Origin: an uncultured Porphyromonadaceae bacterium | GTDB lineage: Bacteria > Bacteroidota > Bacteroidia > Bacteroidales > Muribaculaceae | NCBI GenBank assembly: GCA_947567425.1 | Contig: CANOLV010000010.1 | Coordinates: forward strand, 28,698 to 92,697 | DNA length: 64,000 nt | Reading direction: 5' to 3' | Shown here: positions 57,648-64,000 of the stretch, one piece after another | Layout: every line of letters starts with the position of its first letter | How positions within the stretch are numbered: the stretch's first letter is position 1 | Made by a program: the position numbers and the translations under genes | The notes under the pieces: generated by a model | The model's database searches: none | Seen by the model: the letters and a program-made list of their open reading frames with translations, nothing else | What the model was told of the DNA's origin: nothing

Positions 57648-57702
57648 TTATATTGCAAAGTTATTGTTTATGTAATACATTTACACTAACTTTGCAATAT
57701 AA
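57648..57702 (+). promoter_or_regulatory. Mirrored operator/promoter of the toxin-antitoxin operon
   Basis: A perfect 16-bp inverted repeat: 57648-57663 and 57687-57702, 23 bases apart. Each arm contains TAACTTTG reading outward from the centre, so a -7 box is present on both strands. On the plus strand TTG at 57664 with a 20-base spacer and TAACTTTG at 57687-57694 gives a full promoter for the antitoxin gene. Such operators are normally bound by the ribbon-helix-helix antitoxin (known for the family; inferred here). Confidence 0.8.
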
Positions 57703-57718
57703 AATAACACCAATTAAT

Positions 57719-57973
57719 ATGGAAATAGCACTAAAGAAAAATCAGAGTTTCCGACTTTCCGTGGAGCTGATAGATAGATTAAAGCAACTCGCAAAGCGTC
57801 AAAACCGCAGTCTTAACAACTATGTTGAGACAGTTCTTATTGATGCCGCATATAATGAACCCAATGCTGTAACTCTCGCAGCCATGAAAGAAGCTGAGAG
57901 TGGAGCATTGGATAATGAGGCCCCCATCGACATGTCTTCAATAGAGGCCATGGAAAAATCCATGGGAATATGA
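57719..57973 (+). CDS. RelB/DinJ-type ribbon-helix-helix antitoxin
   Basis: An 84-residue protein. The first 50 residues (KKNQSFRLSVELIDRLKQLAK, shown partly; then RSLNNYVETVLIDAAY) form a ribbon-helix-helix DNA-binding domain; the acidic C-terminus (DNEAPIDMSSIEAMEKSMGI) would wrap the toxin. The start at 57719 follows the mirrored operator; an in-frame Met at 57653 lies within it. Its TGA stop overlaps the toxin ATG (ATGA), the usual coupling in toxin-antitoxin operons. The antitoxin is intact while the toxin is broken. Confidence 0.88.
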   Translation: MEIALKKNQSFRLSVELIDRLKQLAKRQNRSLNNYVETVLIDAAYNEPNAVTLAAMKEAESGALDNEAPIDMSSIEAMEKSMGI

Positions 57974-58107
57974 AAAAGCTCAAACCGACATCGCAATACA
58001 AAAAAGACTACAAGCGATTTCGCAACAATCCGGCTAAAATCAAAAAACTTTTTGATATTCTGGATCGCGTCTATATACTTTCTTGCACCAACGGTTCTGT
58101 AGTATGA
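57970..58107 (+). pseudogene. YafQ/RelE-type toxin, cut by transposon insertion
   Basis: Only the first 32 codons are toxin-like (KKLKPTSQYKKDYKRFR, KIKKLFDILD), matching the N-terminus of YafQ-type RelE-fold mRNA endonucleases. At 58067 the frame enters the transposon end and stops at 58105-58107. The rest of the toxin is not seen beyond the right transposon end (63622 onward), so sequence was also lost or rearranged there. The remaining 45-residue product lacks the catalytic half. Confidence 0.75.
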
Positions 58108-58114
58108 CCAGTTT
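58067..58114 (+). repeat. Left terminal inverted repeat
   Basis: 48 bases beginning GCGTCTATATACTTTC and ending TATGACCAGTTT; exact reverse complement of 63574-63621. Confidence 0.95.
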
Positions 58115-58233
58115 GTTCAAGTTTATTCTTTGGGTATAAATGCTTGTATTTGGTACTCTGTTGAGTATAATTTACTCGTAAAAAACAACTAACCAAAAGA
58201 GAATTGGGGGTTTATTTGAACATTTCGATTGTA

Positions 58234-58440
58234 TTAAGGCATTGTGACCTTACCGAATTCTTCTATAATGCGCTCGTACATGCTCATGATTGCCAAAGCG
58301 ATGTCGCTCATAAGCACTAACGGGCACATATACACGGAAACGAATTTGTCCGCCGTCAATATATGCAAGTTGGTATGGTTCCATATTTTATGAATTTTGA
58401 AACATATTTTAAGTATGTTGATTAACACGAGAACTACCAA
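58234..58440 (-). CDS. Doubtful small hydrophobic ORF
   Basis: A possible 68-residue hydrophobic protein ending MYERIIEEFGKVTMP. No promoter or homology is recognised, and it lies beyond the terminator of the cargo operon. The region 58115-58497 is otherwise without visible genes. Confidence 0.2.
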   Translation of the reverse strand: MVVLVLINILKICFKIHKIWNHTNLHILTADKFVSVYMCPLVLMSDIALAIMSMYERIIEEFGKVTMP

Positions 58441-58497
58441 CTTCTTTATATTAGGATAACCACCAATCTCTCTTGATTAGTTTGCCTTATAATCAGC

Positions 58498-58530
58498 AAA
58501 AAGCGTGCCAGAGTAATCCGACACGCTTTT
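58498..58530 (-). terminator. Terminator of the cargo operon
   Basis: Stem AAAAGCGTG / CACGCTTTT with flanking T run on the minus strand; works for leftward transcription from the cargo genes. Confidence 0.8.
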
Positions 58531-58576
58531 GTTATGTTCCAGCGTTTATCCGCTACTTACTTTCGTGGACAATCTG

Positions 58577-58738
58577 TCATTTCTTCTTGCCGAATAGCGC
58601 ACCGAGAACCATTCGACCGACTTTTCTTTCAAGCCCTTGTTTTGTGGTGGGTATTCCAGTCTTTCGGGCTACTTTCTGTTTGACGGCAGTTATACCGACT
58701 GCTCTTTTGAGTGAGAAGCTAAGTCCGGGGATTTTCAT
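58577..58738 (-). CDS. 53-residue basic peptide, last cargo gene
   Basis: Reads MKIPGLSFSLKRAVGITAV at the start and ends in FGKKK, with KVARKTGIPTTKQGLERKVG between: strongly basic with Gly-turns, no membrane segment. Its ATG overlaps the stop of the preceding membrane-peptide gene (ATGA), indicating translational coupling and supporting that both small genes are real. Function unknown; nucleic-acid binding is possible by charge only. A terminator follows 47 bases downstream. Confidence 0.6.
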   Translation of the reverse strand: MKIPGLSFSLKRAVGITAVKQKVARKTGIPTTKQGLERKVGRMVLGALFGKKK

Positions 58739-58851
58739 AAGTCTTTGATTAGTTCATTAAGTCCGTAGAACATGAGGAACACAAGACCCCAAAACAACAT
58801 CTTGAAGAAGTTGCGCCACATGTAGAGCAGAATGAGTACAATCAGTCTCAT
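58735..58851 (-). CDS. 38-residue single-pass membrane peptide
   Basis: Begins MRLIVLILLYMWRNFFKML and continues FWGLVFLMFYGLNELIKDL; most of it can form one or two membrane helices. It starts 10 bases after the stop of the 291-residue protein gene and overlaps the next gene by ATGA, so it belongs to the cargo operon. No family recognised. Small hydrophobic peptides in such operons can be membrane-acting effectors, but nothing here proves it. Confidence 0.55.
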   Translation of the reverse strand: MRLIVLILLYMWRNFFKMLFWGLVFLMFYGLNELIKDL

Positions 58852-58861
58852 GTTTCAGACT

Positions 58862-59737
58862 TTACAGACCTTTATCATTGAATGATTTTACCATCTTCTT
58901 GATTAGGGCGTCTATCTCATTGGCTATGCCACCCATGAATGCTGCTCTTGCAGACGGATTTTTCAGTTTGCCAAATCCCTCTGACTTCATGGTTTTGAAG
59001 TTGAGTTCGTTGCGAGGTGAAGCTATCGCACATGCGCCCCAATTAGGGTCATCACTTTGGCATACATCTATTGATGGATCAACCCCCGTCAGTGCGGCTG
59101 CCAGAGCGGGTCCCGTTGCGGGGTCGTTGTTGTATCGGATACCGAAGAAGTATCTCTCCTTCATGATGATGGAGAATGTCACGTACTTCTTGCGGTTCTT
59201 TGTGCGGTAGATGTTGAATGTCACACCGTAACGCTTGTATCGGGTGCTCTTGCCATAGTCTGCAACTTCGGCGGAGAAGTCTTTCTTCTCGATTTCGTAC
59301 CCTTTGGCGATAAGTTGGTCTTGCAGTGCGTCCCAAAAGTAGCACTGCAACTGCTCATCATTCAGGTTGTCGGTTTCCACGACCTCACGGCCTGCGGCCG
59401 CAATTGTCATGTTACCCCTTACGAGCTTTGTGTTGTCGGGATTGGCCACTTTTACGGTAATGCCAAAAATGTCTTTCATTTTGGCCTCGAAGTTGGCAAC
59501 TTGCAGATTACCTCTGCATGTCAGTTCTCCACCCTTTACATTCTCTCCGCTACGGATAGATGCAAGGGTGGCATTTTCGGGTGCGAACTTCGGACCCTTG
59601 TAAACTCGGAGTGTTGCCCCGAATGCGTCCTTGAACTGCTTTCTCAGACTGCTGACCGTCATGCGGCCATTGATGTTAAATTCAGCCATTGTGAAGTTGT
59701 CTTTTAAGGTGTTTATAAGATTGTTTATTATTCCCAT
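58862..59737 (-). CDS. Cargo protein of unknown function with internal duplication
   Basis: A 291-residue protein. Residues about 26-60 (VSSLRKQFKDAFGATLRVYKG) and about 80-115 (VANFEAKMKDIFGITVKVANP) are similar alpha-beta-beta units, so the N-terminal third is a tandem repeat. The middle (about 130-215) is a mixed region with QCYFWDALQDQLIAKGYEIE and YKRYGVTFNIYRTKNRKKYV. The C-terminus has NWGACAIASPRNELNFKTM and ends in a helix with MGGIANEIDALIKKMVKSF. I cannot name the family. A start at residue 17 (59689) is possible. It is the third gene of the leftward operon, 17 bases after the 80-residue gene. Confidence 0.8.
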   Translation of the reverse strand: MGIINNLINTLKDNFTMAEFNINGRMTVSSLRKQFKDAFGATLRVYKGPKFAPENATLASIRSGENVKGGELTCRGNLQVANFEAKMKDIFGITVKVANPDNTKLVRGNMTIAAAGREVVETDNLNDEQLQCYFWDALQDQLIAKGYEIEKKDFSAEVADYGKSTRYKRYGVTFNIYRTKNRKKYVTFSIIMKERYFFGIRYNNDPATGPALAAALTGVDPSIDVCQSDDPNWGACAIASPRNELNFKTMKSEGFGKLKNPSARAAFMGGIANEIDALIKKMVKSFNDKGL

Positions 59738-59754
59738 ATACAGAAGTGTTTAGT

Positions 59755-59997
59755 TTATTTCATTCTTTTAAGAGATGCCTTTGCTTTCTCAATATCTCGT
59801 TTTAGACTTTCTATGCGCCTGTCATGTGATGCCGCTCGGTCAATCTTGGTTTTGCGGTAACCAACCTTGTGAGTGGGTATTGCTGTTCTCTTTATCAATG
59901 CTGCATAATATGCGTTGTCTTTTTTCTTTGCTTCCCTCTCCTTGGCAATAGCGGCTCGGAGGTCAATAATCCGTTTCTTATAATATTCCTTGCTCAT
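59755..59997 (-). CDS. 80-residue coiled-coil cargo protein
   Basis: A small, very basic protein with two helical heptad-like segments (KEYYKKRIIDLRAAIAKERE and RRIESLKRDIEKAKASLKR) around a central linker. It begins two bases after the stop of the nuclease-like gene, so the two are translated together. Probably a partner or regulator of one of its neighbours; unknown family. Confidence 0.7.
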   Translation of the reverse strand: MSKEYYKKRIIDLRAAIAKEREAKKKDNAYYAALIKRTAIPTHKVGYRKTKIDRAASHDRRIESLKRDIEKAKASLKRMK

Positions 59998-59999
59998 AG

Positions 60000-60866
60000 T
60001 CAGATGTCAAGTTTATAGGTGTCAGCTATCCGTTCCCAAATACACTTGTTTTCTTGTAAGGATTTCTCTTTGTTGAGTTGGAAGACACCGACAAAGCGGT
60101 AGGTGTTCATGCCAAGCCAATCGGTGTATTTCAGGAATGTTATTCGCTTCACACCTTTAGTGAGGTGATATTTCATGTGTCCCTCCCGCTCCGACTCGGC
60201 TTTGGGATATTCCGTAATGGAGAGTTTGTCGGGAGACAACTTATTGCACCACTTGGAGTGGTGTTCATTAGGCCACCATACGAGTTCTTGGTTTTCTTTG
60301 TTCGGAACCCATACGGCCGACACGCGCAGAAATCCACGATGTTTTGGTTTCGTGCCGAATATCGCGGCTATGTCGTCTATTGTTTGTAGTGATACGTTGT
60401 CGTCAACTCTTAGAACACCTCTTTGGCGTATCTCTTCGGGAGTGTCTGCCCCTTTCCATGGCTTGATTTCGGCATTCTTAATCCGATGATGTAATTTGGC
60501 TATTACAGCATCAGTGCGCTGGTTTAGTTCAGCAAGGGAGCAAGCAATGGCTTTGCCGTCAACCACATTATAGCAATCTATTACCTCGACATCTACATGT
60601 TTTGAGATTTCGGCGTTACGGATATTGTCTGCTTCTTTGTTCTTGTAGTGGGCAGGTTCATTTATCTCAATGACAACACCGAGTTGCGGCAGATAGAGGT
60701 CAGCAAGAGCATACTTCCCTGCTTTTCGCACCACATATTGCTGAAATACGAAGTGAATGTCAGGATTGTCAAGGACATTCCAGATGCGGTGTATCACATA
60801 GCTTTCCAATCTCTTGTGTGAGATTTTGGTTAGCATACGTGTGAGGTAGTCTAATTTGTAGTCCAT
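60000..60866 (-). CDS. Candidate PD-(D/E)XK nuclease, first cargo gene
   Basis: A 288-residue protein from ATG 60866 (GTG 60884 adds six residues). Residues about 25-105 look like a PD-(D/E)XK nuclease core: helix, FQQYVVRK, KYALADLYLPQLGVVIEINE with Asp56 and Glu67-x-Asn69, then HYKNKEADNIRNAEISKH and a strand VEVIDCY. This order resembles the N-terminal domain of AbaSI/PvuRts1I-type modification-dependent endonucleases. The C-terminal part (about 135-288: GFLRVSAVWVPN, LVWWPNEHHSKW, KRITFLKYTDWLGMNTYRFVGVFQL, CIWERIADTY) reads like a modified-base or target-recognition domain. The nuclease call is by motif only; Asn replaces the usual Lys. First gene of the cargo operon. Confidence 0.6.
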   Translation of the reverse strand: MDYKLDYLTRMLTKISHKRLESYVIHRIWNVLDNPDIHFVFQQYVVRKAGKYALADLYLPQLGVVIEINEPAHYKNKEADNIRNAEISKHVDVEVIDCYNVVDGKAIACSLAELNQRTDAVIAKLHHRIKNAEIKPWKGADTPEEIRQRGVLRVDDNVSLQTIDDIAAIFGTKPKHRGFLRVSAVWVPNKENQELVWWPNEHHSKWCNKLSPDKLSITEYPKAESEREGHMKYHLTKGVKRITFLKYTDWLGMNTYRFVGVFQLNKEKSLQENKCIWERIADTYKLDI

Positions 60867-60924
60867 ATTTCGGTTCTCGTACACCTACACATGAAAAAAG
60901 AGCGACAGCCAAAACTTTTTCTCA

Positions 60925-61064
60925 TTTGGTTAATTAGGCTCTGGAATTGCCCTGACGCTCAAATAAGTAAAAAGCAGTCTGCGCCCTTGGGAGGGTACAA
61001 ACCAACATTTTGACTTATTATTTGTGGGCGTCAATGTAAATTTTCCAGATTTAATTAACCCAAA
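60925..61064. other. 140-base multi-helix inverted repeat (structured element)
   Basis: Nested pairs: GGTTAATTA with TAATTAACC (outer), CTGGAA 60941-60946 with TTCCAG 61043-61048, TGACGC 60953-60958 with GCGTCA 61028-61033, AATAAGT 60962-60968 with ACTTATT 61013-61019, and inner AAAA/TTTT. It lies in the 390-base gap before the nuclease-like gene. It could be an RNA leader, a small RNA or a DNA site (origin or transposition enhancer). Confidence 0.7.
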
Positions 61065-61222
61065 TAACTTGTCTAAAAGTCATGTTTGAAATATGTCTTT
61101 GCTAAGTCTTTCTGTTTCTTGCTTCAGTGGATTTTTAGTTTTACAATCCACAAATTAAGCAATAATTTCCGACTTTTGCAAGTCCATATCGCAGAACTGC
61201 TTGAAAAGATGTTTTATAGCAT

Positions 61223-61248
61223 AAAAACCACGCGGCATTCCGCGTGGT
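61223..61248 (-). terminator. Terminator of the transposase gene
   Basis: Nine-bp stem ACCACGCGG / CCGCGTGGT, 4-base loop, T run on the minus strand. Confidence 0.85.
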
Positions 61249-61274
61249 ACTAATACTGATTTGCTTAATAAGTG

Positions 61275-62270
61275 TTACACATATCTCAACCCCATACGCT
61301 CACACTCTCGCCTATACTGCATATCTTCCTGCCGAGCCAAAAGTTGTTCTATGTAGTAAGATTTCATGCAGATTTCTCCATAACATAATCTTCGGCTCGG
61401 AGTACGTAGGCAGTCTATGAACCTCTCGCCATCTGTAAGTTTCCTTGTGTTATAGCGGTAAACGAACTCCTTACAATACTTGGGCAGATGCTTTGAGGTC
61501 ACAAGGTGGTATATGCCTATTATGCCACGTTTGAGTATGCTCCAAAATCCCTCAATCGTGTTGGTGTGGAAACCTCGCTCATTGACATACTCACCGAGAC
61601 TGTGGGCAACTTTTTCGTGGATAAACTTCTTGTGTACACCATTATATCCACGCCAACAATCGGATATGATGCGTATGCCTACATTGGCAAGTTCATCAAT
61701 AATTGACTGAAGTGTATCCTTCGTTGCATCGGGTATGACACGTGCATAAACCTTTCCGTCAGATACCATGCCGAAAACCGGAGTCTTTTGAATGTGAGAC
61801 CGACCTTGTCGCCCTCTGCTTCTTTTACATTTACCACCCACATAGGTTTCATCCACCTGTGTGTCGTCATCAAACTTTGCGTCATCGTCACGGAGATTTT
61901 CACGGATACGGCCAAGCATAAACCATGCGGTCTTTTGGGTAACCCGAATATCACGTGCAAGTTGAGCAGAGCTTATGCCTTTCTTGTGGGAGATAAAGAG
62001 GTAGATGGCATAAAACCACTTTTTCAGTGGAATGTGCGTTCCCTCAAACATAGTGCCTATACGGACATTGAACTTACATCTACAATGGCGGCACTTATAC
62101 TGACCTCTGTGGCGACCTAATGAGGTCAGCCGATAGTGGTTCTTGTCTACCGTTCCGCAATGAGGACACACGGGTGCATCTCCCCAAAGCAGAGTTTCAA
62201 GATACTCTCTGCACTCATCTTCGGTGTGGAGAGTATCCATCATTTCTATGATTGAGCGGAACGGTAACAT
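61275..62270 (-). CDS. IS1595-family (ISXO2-like) transposase
   Basis: A 331-residue DDE-type transposase. An N-terminal zinc ribbon (Cys35, Cys38 in PVCPHCG; Cys60, Cys63 in KCRHC) precedes the ISXO2-like catalytic domain with Asp140 in VDETYVGG, Asp204 in IISDCWRGY, and the Asn/Glu motif HTNTIEGFWSILK (Glu240). All catalytic residues are kept, so it may be active. It is the only transposase inside the 48-bp inverted repeats and is terminated by its own hairpin before the cargo operon. Confidence 0.95.
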   Translation of the reverse strand: MLPFRSIIEMMDTLHTEDECREYLETLLWGDAPVCPHCGTVDKNHYRLTSLGRHRGQYKCRHCRCKFNVRIGTMFEGTHIPLKKWFYAIYLFISHKKGISSAQLARDIRVTQKTAWFMLGRIRENLRDDDAKFDDDTQVDETYVGGKCKRSRGRQGRSHIQKTPVFGMVSDGKVYARVIPDATKDTLQSIIDELANVGIRIISDCWRGYNGVHKKFIHEKVAHSLGEYVNERGFHTNTIEGFWSILKRGIIGIYHLVTSKHLPKYCKEFVYRYNTRKLTDGERFIDCLRTPSRRLCYGEICMKSYYIEQLLARQEDMQYRRECERMGLRYV

Positions 62271-62438
62271 CGGTCGGTGATTTTGAATTATAGAGTAATT
62301 CTACCGCCCGAAAGAGGATTTGTTAAATTTTGGAGAAAGAATTTTTGTGCGAAAGCGAAAGTTTTTTGTTGAATATAGTGCAACATGCTGATTGGCTTTC
62401 TGTTGAATTTACTATAAACTAAAATTAAACAAAGAAAC

Positions 62439-62939
62439 ATGAGTACAGCCACAGATAAGGCAATACCAACTATTTCAGAAGTTAAATCGTTGGTTGAACA
62501 ACGCTCTTTATATATGAAATTAGAGCTAAATAATGACACACTTTTACAAAACGTTAATATACAATCTAATAACATCAGCTCATCATATCCATTACATGTT
62601 GACCTCTCAGTCATAATGAAAGCTGATGATGCATACTTTAGTCTACCGATTATATCATTTGGTTATGATCATATTGGTAGTTCATATGGTAATGAAGAAA
62701 CATCTAAATCATTGATACTTGTTGGCGGTTATAACAATGAATACCCCATAATAATAACTGATGAATATTTAGGTGAGTTATTAGTGAATAAATACACTGC
62801 TTATTTTTCATCAACAAATCGGTTCAATATTAAGTTATCATGCAAGTTTGCATCAAAAACTGGTTTGCAAGATGCATATATTCATGCAATGATTACACAA
62901 CTAAAATGTGAATCAATGTATATGAATAAACCTGTGTAA
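62439..62939 (+). CDS. Unknown 166-residue cargo protein
   Basis: A cytosolic-looking protein, AT-rich in sequence, beta-rich in the middle (PLHVDLSVIMKADDAYFSL, GGYNNEYPIIITDEYLGEL). No domain recognised. It is transcribed away from the transposase; the first of three rightward genes in the element. No standard -7 box was found upstream. Confidence 0.65.
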   Translation: MSTATDKAIPTISEVKSLVEQRSLYMKLELNNDTLLQNVNIQSNNISSSYPLHVDLSVIMKADDAYFSLPIISFGYDHIGSSYGNEETSKSLILVGGYNNEYPIIITDEYLGELLVNKYTAYFSSTNRFNIKLSCKFASKTGLQDAYIHAMITQLKCESMYMNKPV

Positions 62940-63040
62940 TTTGTGTATAGCTGAGCTTACTCAGCACAACCAAAGCCCAATCCGTTGCGAAACAGATTGG
63001 GCTTTATACATATTTCATAAATCAATCTCACAAGTATAAT

Positions 63041-63181
63041 ATGGAATTTCTTACACTTGCTGAGTTCCTTGATGCGAACTCATTAGAGCACAAGTTGCAG
63101 GTTCAGATTAAGGCCGCACTTGATGCAGCGGACAATTCGGAAGATGCGGTGAAAACCGAGAACGATACAGAACCAACATAG
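63041..63181 (+). CDS. 46-residue acidic peptide
   Basis: Starts MEFLTLAEFLDANSLEHKLQ and ends NDTEPT; helical, acidic, no membrane segment. A clear terminator follows 25 bases downstream, which supports a real transcript. Function unknown. Confidence 0.5.
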   Translation: MEFLTLAEFLDANSLEHKLQVQIKAALDAADNSEDAVKTENDTEPT

Positions 63182-63205
63182 TACACAACAAGTGTGAACA
63201 AAAGT

Positions 63206-63238
63206 AAAAGAGGGTAGCTCAAAAAGCCACCCTCTTTT
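63206..63238 (+). terminator. Terminator after the 46-residue gene
   Basis: Ten-bp stem AAAAGAGGGT / ACCCTCTTTT, extended inward by GCT / AGC. Confidence 0.8.
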
Positions 63239-63275
63239 GGGTTGTAATTGTCCCATTTTGGCTTTCGGTGCAAAA

Positions 63276-63464
63276 ATGGCAGATACATATCAGGATGCCG
63301 ATGTTGGCAGCAATCCATTAAACCTATTCAAAATTATGGATACCAACGCAATATCCGATGTGTTTACCCTTATGGGTGTAGTTGTGACAGTCACTGATTT
63401 TATCTGTCTTTGCATAAAATTTGCCAAGTGGTGCAAGAAAAAGCGAGGCCAAAGAGCCAAATGA
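63276..63464 (+). CDS. 62-residue small membrane protein
   Basis: From ATG 63276: MADTYQDADVGSNPLNL, then a hydrophobic segment (VFTLMGVVVTVTDFICLCIKF) and a basic tail WCKKKRGQRAK. One predicted membrane helix. An upstream in-frame Met (63237) would start inside the preceding terminator and is not preferred. Last gene before the right end of the transposon. Confidence 0.5.
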   Translation: MADTYQDADVGSNPLNLFKIMDTNAISDVFTLMGVVVTVTDFICLCIKFAKWCKKKRGQRAK

Positions 63465-63499
63465 TGTTAATAAGGCATTAGATTGATTAGCCCTACTGT

Positions 63500-63539
63500 C
63501 AACCGTTCGCACGGAGTAGCCGCTCCATGTGGACGGTTG
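63500..63539 (+). terminator. Hairpin near the right transposon end
   Basis: CAACCGT (63500-63506) with ACGGTTG (63533-63539) and further inner pairing CACGGAG / CTCC-TGTG, followed by TTTA. Possible terminator of the small membrane protein gene. Confidence 0.5.
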
Positions 63540-63573
63540 TTTACAACCCTTAAATAATTATACACGTACGAAT

Positions 63574-63621
63574 AAACTGGTCATACTACAGAACCGTTGG
63601 TGCAAGAAAGTATATAGACGC
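63574..63621 (-). repeat. Right terminal inverted repeat
   Basis: 48 bases, exact reverse complement of the left repeat at 58067-58114. Confidence 0.95.
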
Positions 63622-63699
63622 ATTTCCGATATATAGCCAGAAATGATCCACTTCCAACCAATTCTGATTACACACACAGGATTCGTCGGACGTTGCCAC

Positions 63700-63793
63700 A
63701 ACCGATGTCCTGCGGACATCAATTGCGGGTATCACCCATGACCGGGCACATGCCGCCTGTCGGCTTCATGTACCCGGTTAATAGCCTGCGGCA
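63700..63793 (-). repeat. REP-like element copy D
   Basis: Inverted relative to copies A and C: palindrome ATGTCC-TGC-GGACAT, hairpin arms CCGGGCACATG / CATGTACCCGG, and GCCTGCGGC at the end. The spacer between palindrome and hairpin differs completely from copy A. From 63794 to the window end no gene is supported; a 9-bp stem GGCATTCCC / GGGGATGCC closes the window. Confidence 0.88.
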
Positions 63794-64000
63794 GCTACAA
63801 TCCATCCCCAAAACGGCTCTACCGGCGCGCCTACGGCAAGCCCCGCCCAATCACATCCTCTGGCCCCCCTTTAAAGGGCTTAGTTTTGGGGGATTTGGCG
63901 TGGAGGGCTTTCTTTTTCGGGTGAAGAATCCAAATAGAAACGCAAAGTTTTAGGCGTATCAAGCTGAAAGGCATTCCCACTCTCCTCGCGAGGGGATGCC

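Follow-up and report, generated by a model that had tools for sequence, protein, structure and literature searches.

A small IS1595-family transposon that probably carries a modification-dependent restriction operon led by a structured RNA

IS1595-family elements that carry passenger genes exist. Defence genes travel as cargo on Tn7-like transposons (PMC8649781; this and the other publications are cited from excerpts), and Brig1 is a DNA glycosylase that provides defence (PMC11078745). PvuRts1I and AbaSI are reported to prefer 5-glucosylhydroxymethylcytosine (5ghmC) over 5-hydroxymethylcytosine (5hmC) and the latter over 5-methylcytosine (5mC), and PvuRts1I is presented as a system in its own right, carried on a plasmid (PMC12707154). 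The active site of PvuRts1I comprises Glu20, Asp57, Glu68, and an atypical Asp70, with Glu71 also required (PMC4027163), while Asn217 and Glu228 belong to its base pocket (PMC4259335).

Here we describe an element near the right end of a 64,000-nucleotide stretch of DNA (the window, whose positions are used throughout) from an uncultured Porphyromonadaceae bacterium, placed in the Muribaculaceae by GTDB (GenBank assembly GCA_947567425.1, contig CANOLV010000010.1, positions 28,698 to 92,697). The original prediction, made from the sequence of the window, had seen an IS1595-type transposon with a multi-gene cargo of unknown function, perhaps a defence system that moves as a unit. We consider it likely that the element is an IS1595-family passenger transposon whose cargo is a modification-dependent (type IV-like) restriction operon with a structured RNA at its head; judged by sequence comparison, the operon would serve anti-phage defence and the RNA would control it. 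Here, a restriction enzyme for modified bases and its conserved partners meet, on a small transposon, a structured RNA common to many otherwise unrelated operons. The core of the cargo belongs to a known restriction family, and the new part is its setting, that is, the operon, the module, the RNA, and the small transposon. A literature search at the level of titles and abstract openings returned no description of this element or RNA.

The nuclease, its operon, and the transposon

The leftward operon begins with a gene (60000-60884, minus strand; its start is uncertain, either the GTG at 60884 or an ATG 18 nt later) for a 294-aa protein with a PvuRts1I-like N-terminal domain of the PD-(D/E)XK type (1e-29) and a C-terminal SRA domain (1.5e-35), both from Pfam. 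The protein matches PADLOC's mREase_II at 3.9e-75 and, in the Protein Data Bank (PDB), AbaSI at 6.5e-26 and PvuRts1I at 2.6e-23. Residues E27, D62, E73, E76, N214, and E225, which correspond to catalytic and pocket positions of PvuRts1I, are kept in all 15 aligned sequences. Its domains and residues mark it as a predicted modification-dependent restriction enzyme of the PvuRts1I/AbaSI type, and our best guess is that it would cleave hydroxymethylated phage DNA. With this assignment, the cargo has at its core a defence gene of a known kind; the multi-gene cargo of the original prediction stood, but its function is no longer without a clue.

The family of the nuclease's N-terminal domain occurs in 15 of 297 genomes of the bacterial family. 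The 15 nuclease loci compared below leave out one of these genomes (G241, a partial match of 29.5 bits) and add locus L052. Distant relatives, all below 60% identity, occur in 49 plasmid and 10 phage records, and the 291-aa and 53-aa proteins of the operon found no match in the phage and plasmid collections searched. On these grounds we rejected a phage or plasmid origin of the cargo, and with it the possibility, raised in the original prediction, that these are ordinary phage or plasmid genes.

Behind the nuclease, on the same strand, follow genes for a coil-like charged protein of 80 aa (59755-59997), a 291-aa protein (58862-59737), a hydrophobic, membrane-type peptide of 38 aa (58735-58851, overlapping the next gene by 4 nt), and a basic peptide of 53 aa (58577-58738), which gives the five leftward genes first proposed if the 38-aa open reading frame (ORF) is counted. 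The idea of a system had been staked on the co-occurrence of these genes elsewhere, and all five stand together and collinear in 11 of the 15 nuclease loci, with four of the five in G117. Median pairwise ratios of nonsynonymous to synonymous change (dN/dS) are 0.084, 0.034, 0.057, 0.141, and 0.060 in operon order, rough values because the mean synonymous distances are 0.96 to 1.37; all five genes are under purifying selection.

The cargo lies between long terminal inverted repeats. Arms of 52 nt each were detected at 58067-58118 and 63570-63621 (98% complementary, 5,451 nt between them, outermost 48 bases perfect), and comparison with related elements places the end of the repeat one base further out, at a C on the left and at a deviating base on the right, giving repeats of 58066-58118 on the plus strand and 63570-63622 on the minus strand. 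A search of the bacterium's own draft genome with the repeat returned two matches, both at the element's own ends. The transposase (331 aa, 61275-62270, minus strand) is uninterrupted and has a zinc ribbon and an ISXO2-like domain (PF12762, 1.8e-33; PF12760, 2.3e-13; NF033547, 2.5e-58). Its domains and the terminal repeats both place the element in the IS1595 family, as originally predicted. The transposase has one match in its own genome and occurs in 2 of 14 genomes of the genus (its own included) and 53 of 297 of the family.

Searching for the same repeats and gene order in other genomes had been suggested at the outset, and the same order was found between the same repeats in other genera. 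The long repeat stands at both ends of 7 of the 15 nuclease loci and at one end of an eighth (G104); it is also present at one end of an element in G127 that has no visible nuclease and meets a contig end. Perfect 8-bp target duplications surround the elements of G244, G043, and G276. Identities to the window's transposase and nuclease, respectively, are 97 and 94% in G104, 83 and 78% in both G022 and G043, 66 and 64% in G276, and 82 and 45% in G244, which indicates that the two genes mostly travel together, with one exchange of cargo. The G244 element (L093:6845-13264) has the same repeats and different partner genes, and the stretches flanking its cargo on both sides still resemble the window; on the far side of the cargo, these are noncoding stretches at 58159-58212 (85% identity) and 58460-58533 (79%). 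G244 thus appears to be a natural case of cargo exchange between conserved flanks. The part of the cargo in defence is something we infer. A diverged IS1595 element in the same genus (G001, L249:6206-9268; transposase about 54% identical, similar repeats) has a perfect 8-bp duplication, TTATTTTT, at both ends and carries the RNA described below between its transposase and a single, different cargo gene.

A structured RNA in front of the operon

Between the transposase and the nuclease lies a conserved region, about 60893-61207 on the minus strand, which we describe as a structured RNA. It comprises a conserved 5' part (61080-61207), in which about 61151-61181 comes close to a Bacteroidetes-type promoter, a long imperfect hairpin of about 157 nt (60919-61079, by match to covariance model R1), and a terminator-like hairpin with a U-run (60893-60923, by terminator score). 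Positions 60885-61207 are 83 to 91% identical to ten related loci and 76 to 78% identical to G276 and G117. In L052, G269, G022, G028, G209, G044, and G043, the identity of the RNA region exceeds the 78 to 80% of the whole conserved stretch around it, whereas in G104 it is not better conserved than its surroundings (91% versus 94%). In G147 and G244, the region is 84% identical though the nuclease is only 45% identical.

All 13 full copies adjacent to a nuclease fold into one long imperfect hairpin (−49.3 to −53.7 kcal/mol) with arms of three sequence types; at the remaining two nuclease loci, G097 begins inside the RNA and G229 retains 43 nt beside the nuclease. Three copies examined against shuffled sequence fold better than it (z scores of −4.6, −5.1, and −3.9), and in 12 of the 13 full copies folding favours the sense over the antisense strand, by only 0.2 kcal/mol in two. 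When the 13 sequences were aligned, 7 pairs had changed on both sides, compared to 0 to 2 with the partners slid, and the covariation score was reached in none of 500 shuffles.

The RNA is not confined to this cassette. The covariance model found it in 81 of the 297 family genomes at E ≤0.001 and in 44 at E ≤1e-9, these E-values being rough. From about 100 places in the family, we took 39 of the better-scoring ones outside the cassette loci and added G001, and 38 of these 40 further copies fold with z below −2. In an alignment of 53 distinct matches, both-side changes affect 42 of the 53 pairs and amount to 322 cells, compared to 32 to 62 with the partners slid, and none of 500 shuffles scored as high on any measure; this alignment was fitted to the model and hence leans towards it. 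Many G-U pairs are present on the sense strand. Rfam release 15 gave no family at gathering score over the RNA, only sub-threshold hairpin matches. Hits to CsrC at 58499-58530 (E 0.0051; 20.6 bits, where the gathering score is 61) and to a microRNA on the L094 RNA (23.5 bits versus 97) were judged to be chance hairpins, and a retron was set aside, as the protein-family scans detected no reverse transcriptase among the element's proteins.

Promoter-like and terminator-like signals flank the hairpin. The strict form TTG-N18-23-TAnnTTTG, which we take to be the Bacteroidetes promoter motif, lies upstream in 28 of 52 loci, compared to 13 of 935 random positions and 16 of 2,600 shuffles. A terminator-like hairpin follows the RNA in 50 of 53 loci, compared to 69 of 530 shuffles, by a score devised for this analysis. 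A same-strand ORF of at least 55 aa begins 20 to 160 nt after the RNA hairpin in 41 of 46 loci.

At 20 of the 40 further loci, a UDG-type, WYL, GmrSD-type, or PADLOC-candidate gene lies within about 2.6 kb downstream, a raw count without a background frequency. By kind, and with some loci counted more than once, these are UDG-superfamily F0 (8), WYL family F1 (7), a PDC-M15 pair (2), GmrSD_N (1), and F2 (6); F2 is tied to F0 only via a profile match over 38 columns, and excluding it leaves 14 of 40. The Pfam and PADLOC scans of the downstream families used representatives only. Two others, F6 and F7, looked UDG-like by eye, a reading that neither Pfam nor profile comparison supported, and no credible match emerged when one F6 and one F0 protein were compared with the PDB. 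Counter-examples within the family are G021 and G119, where the downstream genes look secreted or lipoprotein-like by eye, G026 with a glycosyl hydrolase, G001 (lipoprotein-like), and G096. Short proteins at L216:4043-4690 and L213:1836-2690, in two RNA-led gene clusters, are similar to portions of DNA gyrase subunit A and of the finger domain of DNA polymerase III alpha; they are perhaps decoys or mimics.

Partner genes, insertion site, and remaining reading frames

The complete 291-aa protein occurs in 11 of the 297 family genomes, and some part of it, mostly the N-domain (residues 17-118), in 48. Its residues 127-284 resemble positions 247-408 of the 413 in PADLOC candidate PDC-S26; the full-length PDC-S26 protein has a PDDEXK_4 nuclease, and the 291-aa protein has no PDDEXK match. 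Among viral contigs, no stretch fitted the 291-aa patterns, and 31 fitted those of the N-domain, none of them confirmed. Against PDB sequences, the 291-aa protein had no credible match, and structure prediction stayed below a mean pLDDT of 50 both from the single sequence and from a nine-row alignment. For the N-domain, a ubiquitin-like fold is no more than a conjecture.

The N-domain also makes up entire proteins of about 104 aa and, in other cases, is joined to WG-repeat or other regions. Around 19 N-domain loci (L031-L049, about 3 kb of each), we counted relatives of the 53-aa peptide at 12, coil proteins at 13, TerB at 10, an OmpA-domain protein at 13, and an ion channel at 11. A cluster of TerB, OmpA-domain, N-domain, coil, 53-aa-type peptide, and ion-channel genes recurs in the same family (L033, L036, L038-L047, and L164-L167); its OmpA-domain protein weakly resembles ZorB. 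Beyond the family, a search of 246 more genomes of the class found the 53-aa peptide in five, and two of these five loci also carry N-domains. L175 has both a KAP NTPase and a UDG-superfamily gene, L177 has a KAP NTPase, and L176 a sub-cut-off match to the UDG superfamily. Small membrane-type proteins lie near the peptide relatives in L175, L176, and L177. The N-domain, coil, and basic peptide thus make up a shared module, since they are found again next to TerB, OmpA, and ion-channel genes; the operon therefore couples a restriction enzyme with a module whose neighbours elsewhere are of membrane type. Both this module and the structured RNA had been overlooked in the original prediction.

The element breaks a YafQ-type toxin gene, whose intact relatives have 90 aa, after about codon 33, leaving the 5' part at 57970-58066 (plus strand) behind an antitoxin gene at 57653-57973. 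In the right flank, 63685-63800 contains a short repeat present at many other sites of the same genome, and a second repeat (about 63921-63976) sits at contig ends elsewhere in it; the contig itself ends at window base 64000, shortly past the right terminal repeat. The three small rightward genes of the original prediction are present as ORFs of 166 aa (62439-62939, plus strand, G+C 0.303), 46 aa (63041-63181, plus strand), and 75 aa (63237-63464, plus strand). In the related elements examined, only the 46-aa ORF has relatives, located near the repeat (median dN/dS of 0.088 across codons 6-28), and the 166-aa and 75-aa ORFs have none.

Proposed mechanism, alternatives, and known systems

We propose the following mechanism, the steps of which fall in support from the action of the nuclease to the RNA leader and then to the accessory module. 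The SRA domain would read modified cytosine, such as (glucosyl-)hydroxymethylcytosine, and the nuclease would cut incoming phage DNA nearby. The RNA would be a transcribed leader that mostly ends at its terminator; since expression of the operon would then need read-through, it would stay low until some condition or signal altered the fold and allowed the operon to be expressed. The 291-aa protein, the coil protein, the membrane peptide, and the basic peptide may form an accessory module that positions or regulates the nuclease, perhaps on the inner membrane, while the transposon would spread the cassette, with cargo exchangeable between conserved flanks. More tentatively, the hairpin may define a regulatory RNA class new to the Bacteroidales: a leader of about 250 to 300 nt, started by a promoter and closed by a terminator, that controls the expression of exchangeable accessory genes. 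Within this family, those genes would often be anti-phage effectors (PvuRts1I, UDG-type, GmrSD-type, and PADLOC candidates), and the leader would serve them as a shared switch that responds to infection and is itself copied onto transposons along with its effector.

Several observations weigh against this explanation. At the insertion site, the right flank differs from the rest of the YafQ-type toxin gene, whose remainder (beyond residues 1-33) was not found in a search of the draft genome; no empty site came to light, and only 5 of the 8 flanking bases agree, without a perfect copy of the target duplication. Together with the window, three more of the seven two-ended elements (G022, G209, and L052) have no perfect 8-bp duplication, and 7 of the 15 nuclease loci have no repeat, some of them on contigs that end nearby. 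The nucleases of G147, G229, and G244 (43 to 45% identical) stand without the other four operon genes, and the position of PvuRts1I Asp70 is Asn in 13 of 15 sequences, the window's included, and Asp in two. The window's own RNA copy has only a near match to the promoter motif, short of the strict form, and two of the five shuffle measures for the 13-sequence alignment are within chance (pair types, 428 of 500; both-side pairs, 20 of 500). Finally, the RNA model matches 4 of 20 genomes from other families of the order, and at 6 of the 8 places examined there (out of nine) the gene nearest downstream seems, by eye, to encode a secreted protein or a lipoprotein, a pattern that counts against the idea of an RNA serving defence alone.

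The five genes might instead constitute one obligate multi-subunit defence system, in which the 291-aa protein, together with its partners, would detect infection at the membrane and permit the nuclease to act, possibly with an abortive outcome. Such a system would fit the strict gene order, the short gaps or overlaps, the low dN/dS of all five genes, and the joint recurrence of the N-domain, coil, and basic-peptide families beside membrane-type genes, but nucleases of the same Pfam family do occur without the other four genes at G147, G229, and G244, and the cited excerpt presents PvuRts1I as its own plasmid-borne system (PMC12707154). We regard obligate joint action of the five as possible yet doubtful. 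We are similarly inclined to doubt that the RNA is an independent small RNA, 6S-like or another regulator, or a part of the transposon, with neighbouring genes as hitch-hikers. In favour of this, a terminator-like hairpin stands directly after nearly every copy, the long hairpin with internal loops is reminiscent of 6S RNA, and in G001 the RNA again separates an IS1595 transposase from other cargo. Yet a same-strand ORF follows closely in most loci, Rfam gives no 6S match, 21 of the 29 IS1595 loci searched gave no match to the RNA (8 had it), and among the matches listed, 39 of the 40 further RNA loci have no transposase nearby at the search settings used.

That the hairpin acts as DNA, for example as a cruciform or as a recombination site for cargo exchange, strikes us as improbable. 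Its arms are inverted repeats, and the flanks on both sides of the cargo are conserved in G244 despite the different cargo; the many G-U pairs on the sense strand, the lower energy of that strand in nearly all cassette copies (slight in two), and the promoter-like and terminator-like motifs around the hairpin all point to RNA. Least probable of all, in our judgement, is decayed or selfish cargo that rides on the transposon without a role in defence: the host copy does sit at a damaged site, but purifying selection acts on all five genes, and the catalytic and pocket residues are conserved. A modification-dependent restriction operon with an RNA leader remains the explanation that we prefer. 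The RNA is the part most worth following. If it does control defence genes, it would provide a sequence tag for new anti-phage genes in gut bacteria, and it would pose, in testable form, the question of how restriction is turned on without harm to the host. The module of N-domain, coil, and basic peptide, for its part, ties the restriction operon to the TerB/OmpA/ion-channel clusters.

Compared to PvuRts1I, the window nuclease has the same domain order and the equivalents of catalytic E20, D57, E68, and E71 and of pocket residues N217 and E228; unlike PvuRts1I, it has Asn at the Asp70 position, and its gene rides on a small transposon, preceded by a structured RNA and accompanied by four conserved partner genes. 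With the IS1595 family (ISXO2-like DDE transposases), the element shares its transposase domains, terminal repeats, and, in its relatives, 8-bp duplications, and it is set apart by long repeats of about 48 bp and by a multi-gene restriction cargo with a structured RNA. The PADLOC candidate PDC-S26, a term that our literature search did not find, has its C-terminal region in common with the 291-aa protein, in which the N-domain replaces the N-terminal PDDEXK_4 nuclease part. Tn7-like transposons likewise carry defence cargo, but the window element is unrelated to them, far smaller, and has another transposase. Brig1 resembles, in kind of gene, the UDG-superfamily genes that follow the same RNA in other genomes, though none is present in the window element; Brig1 and these genes could both act on modified phage bases.

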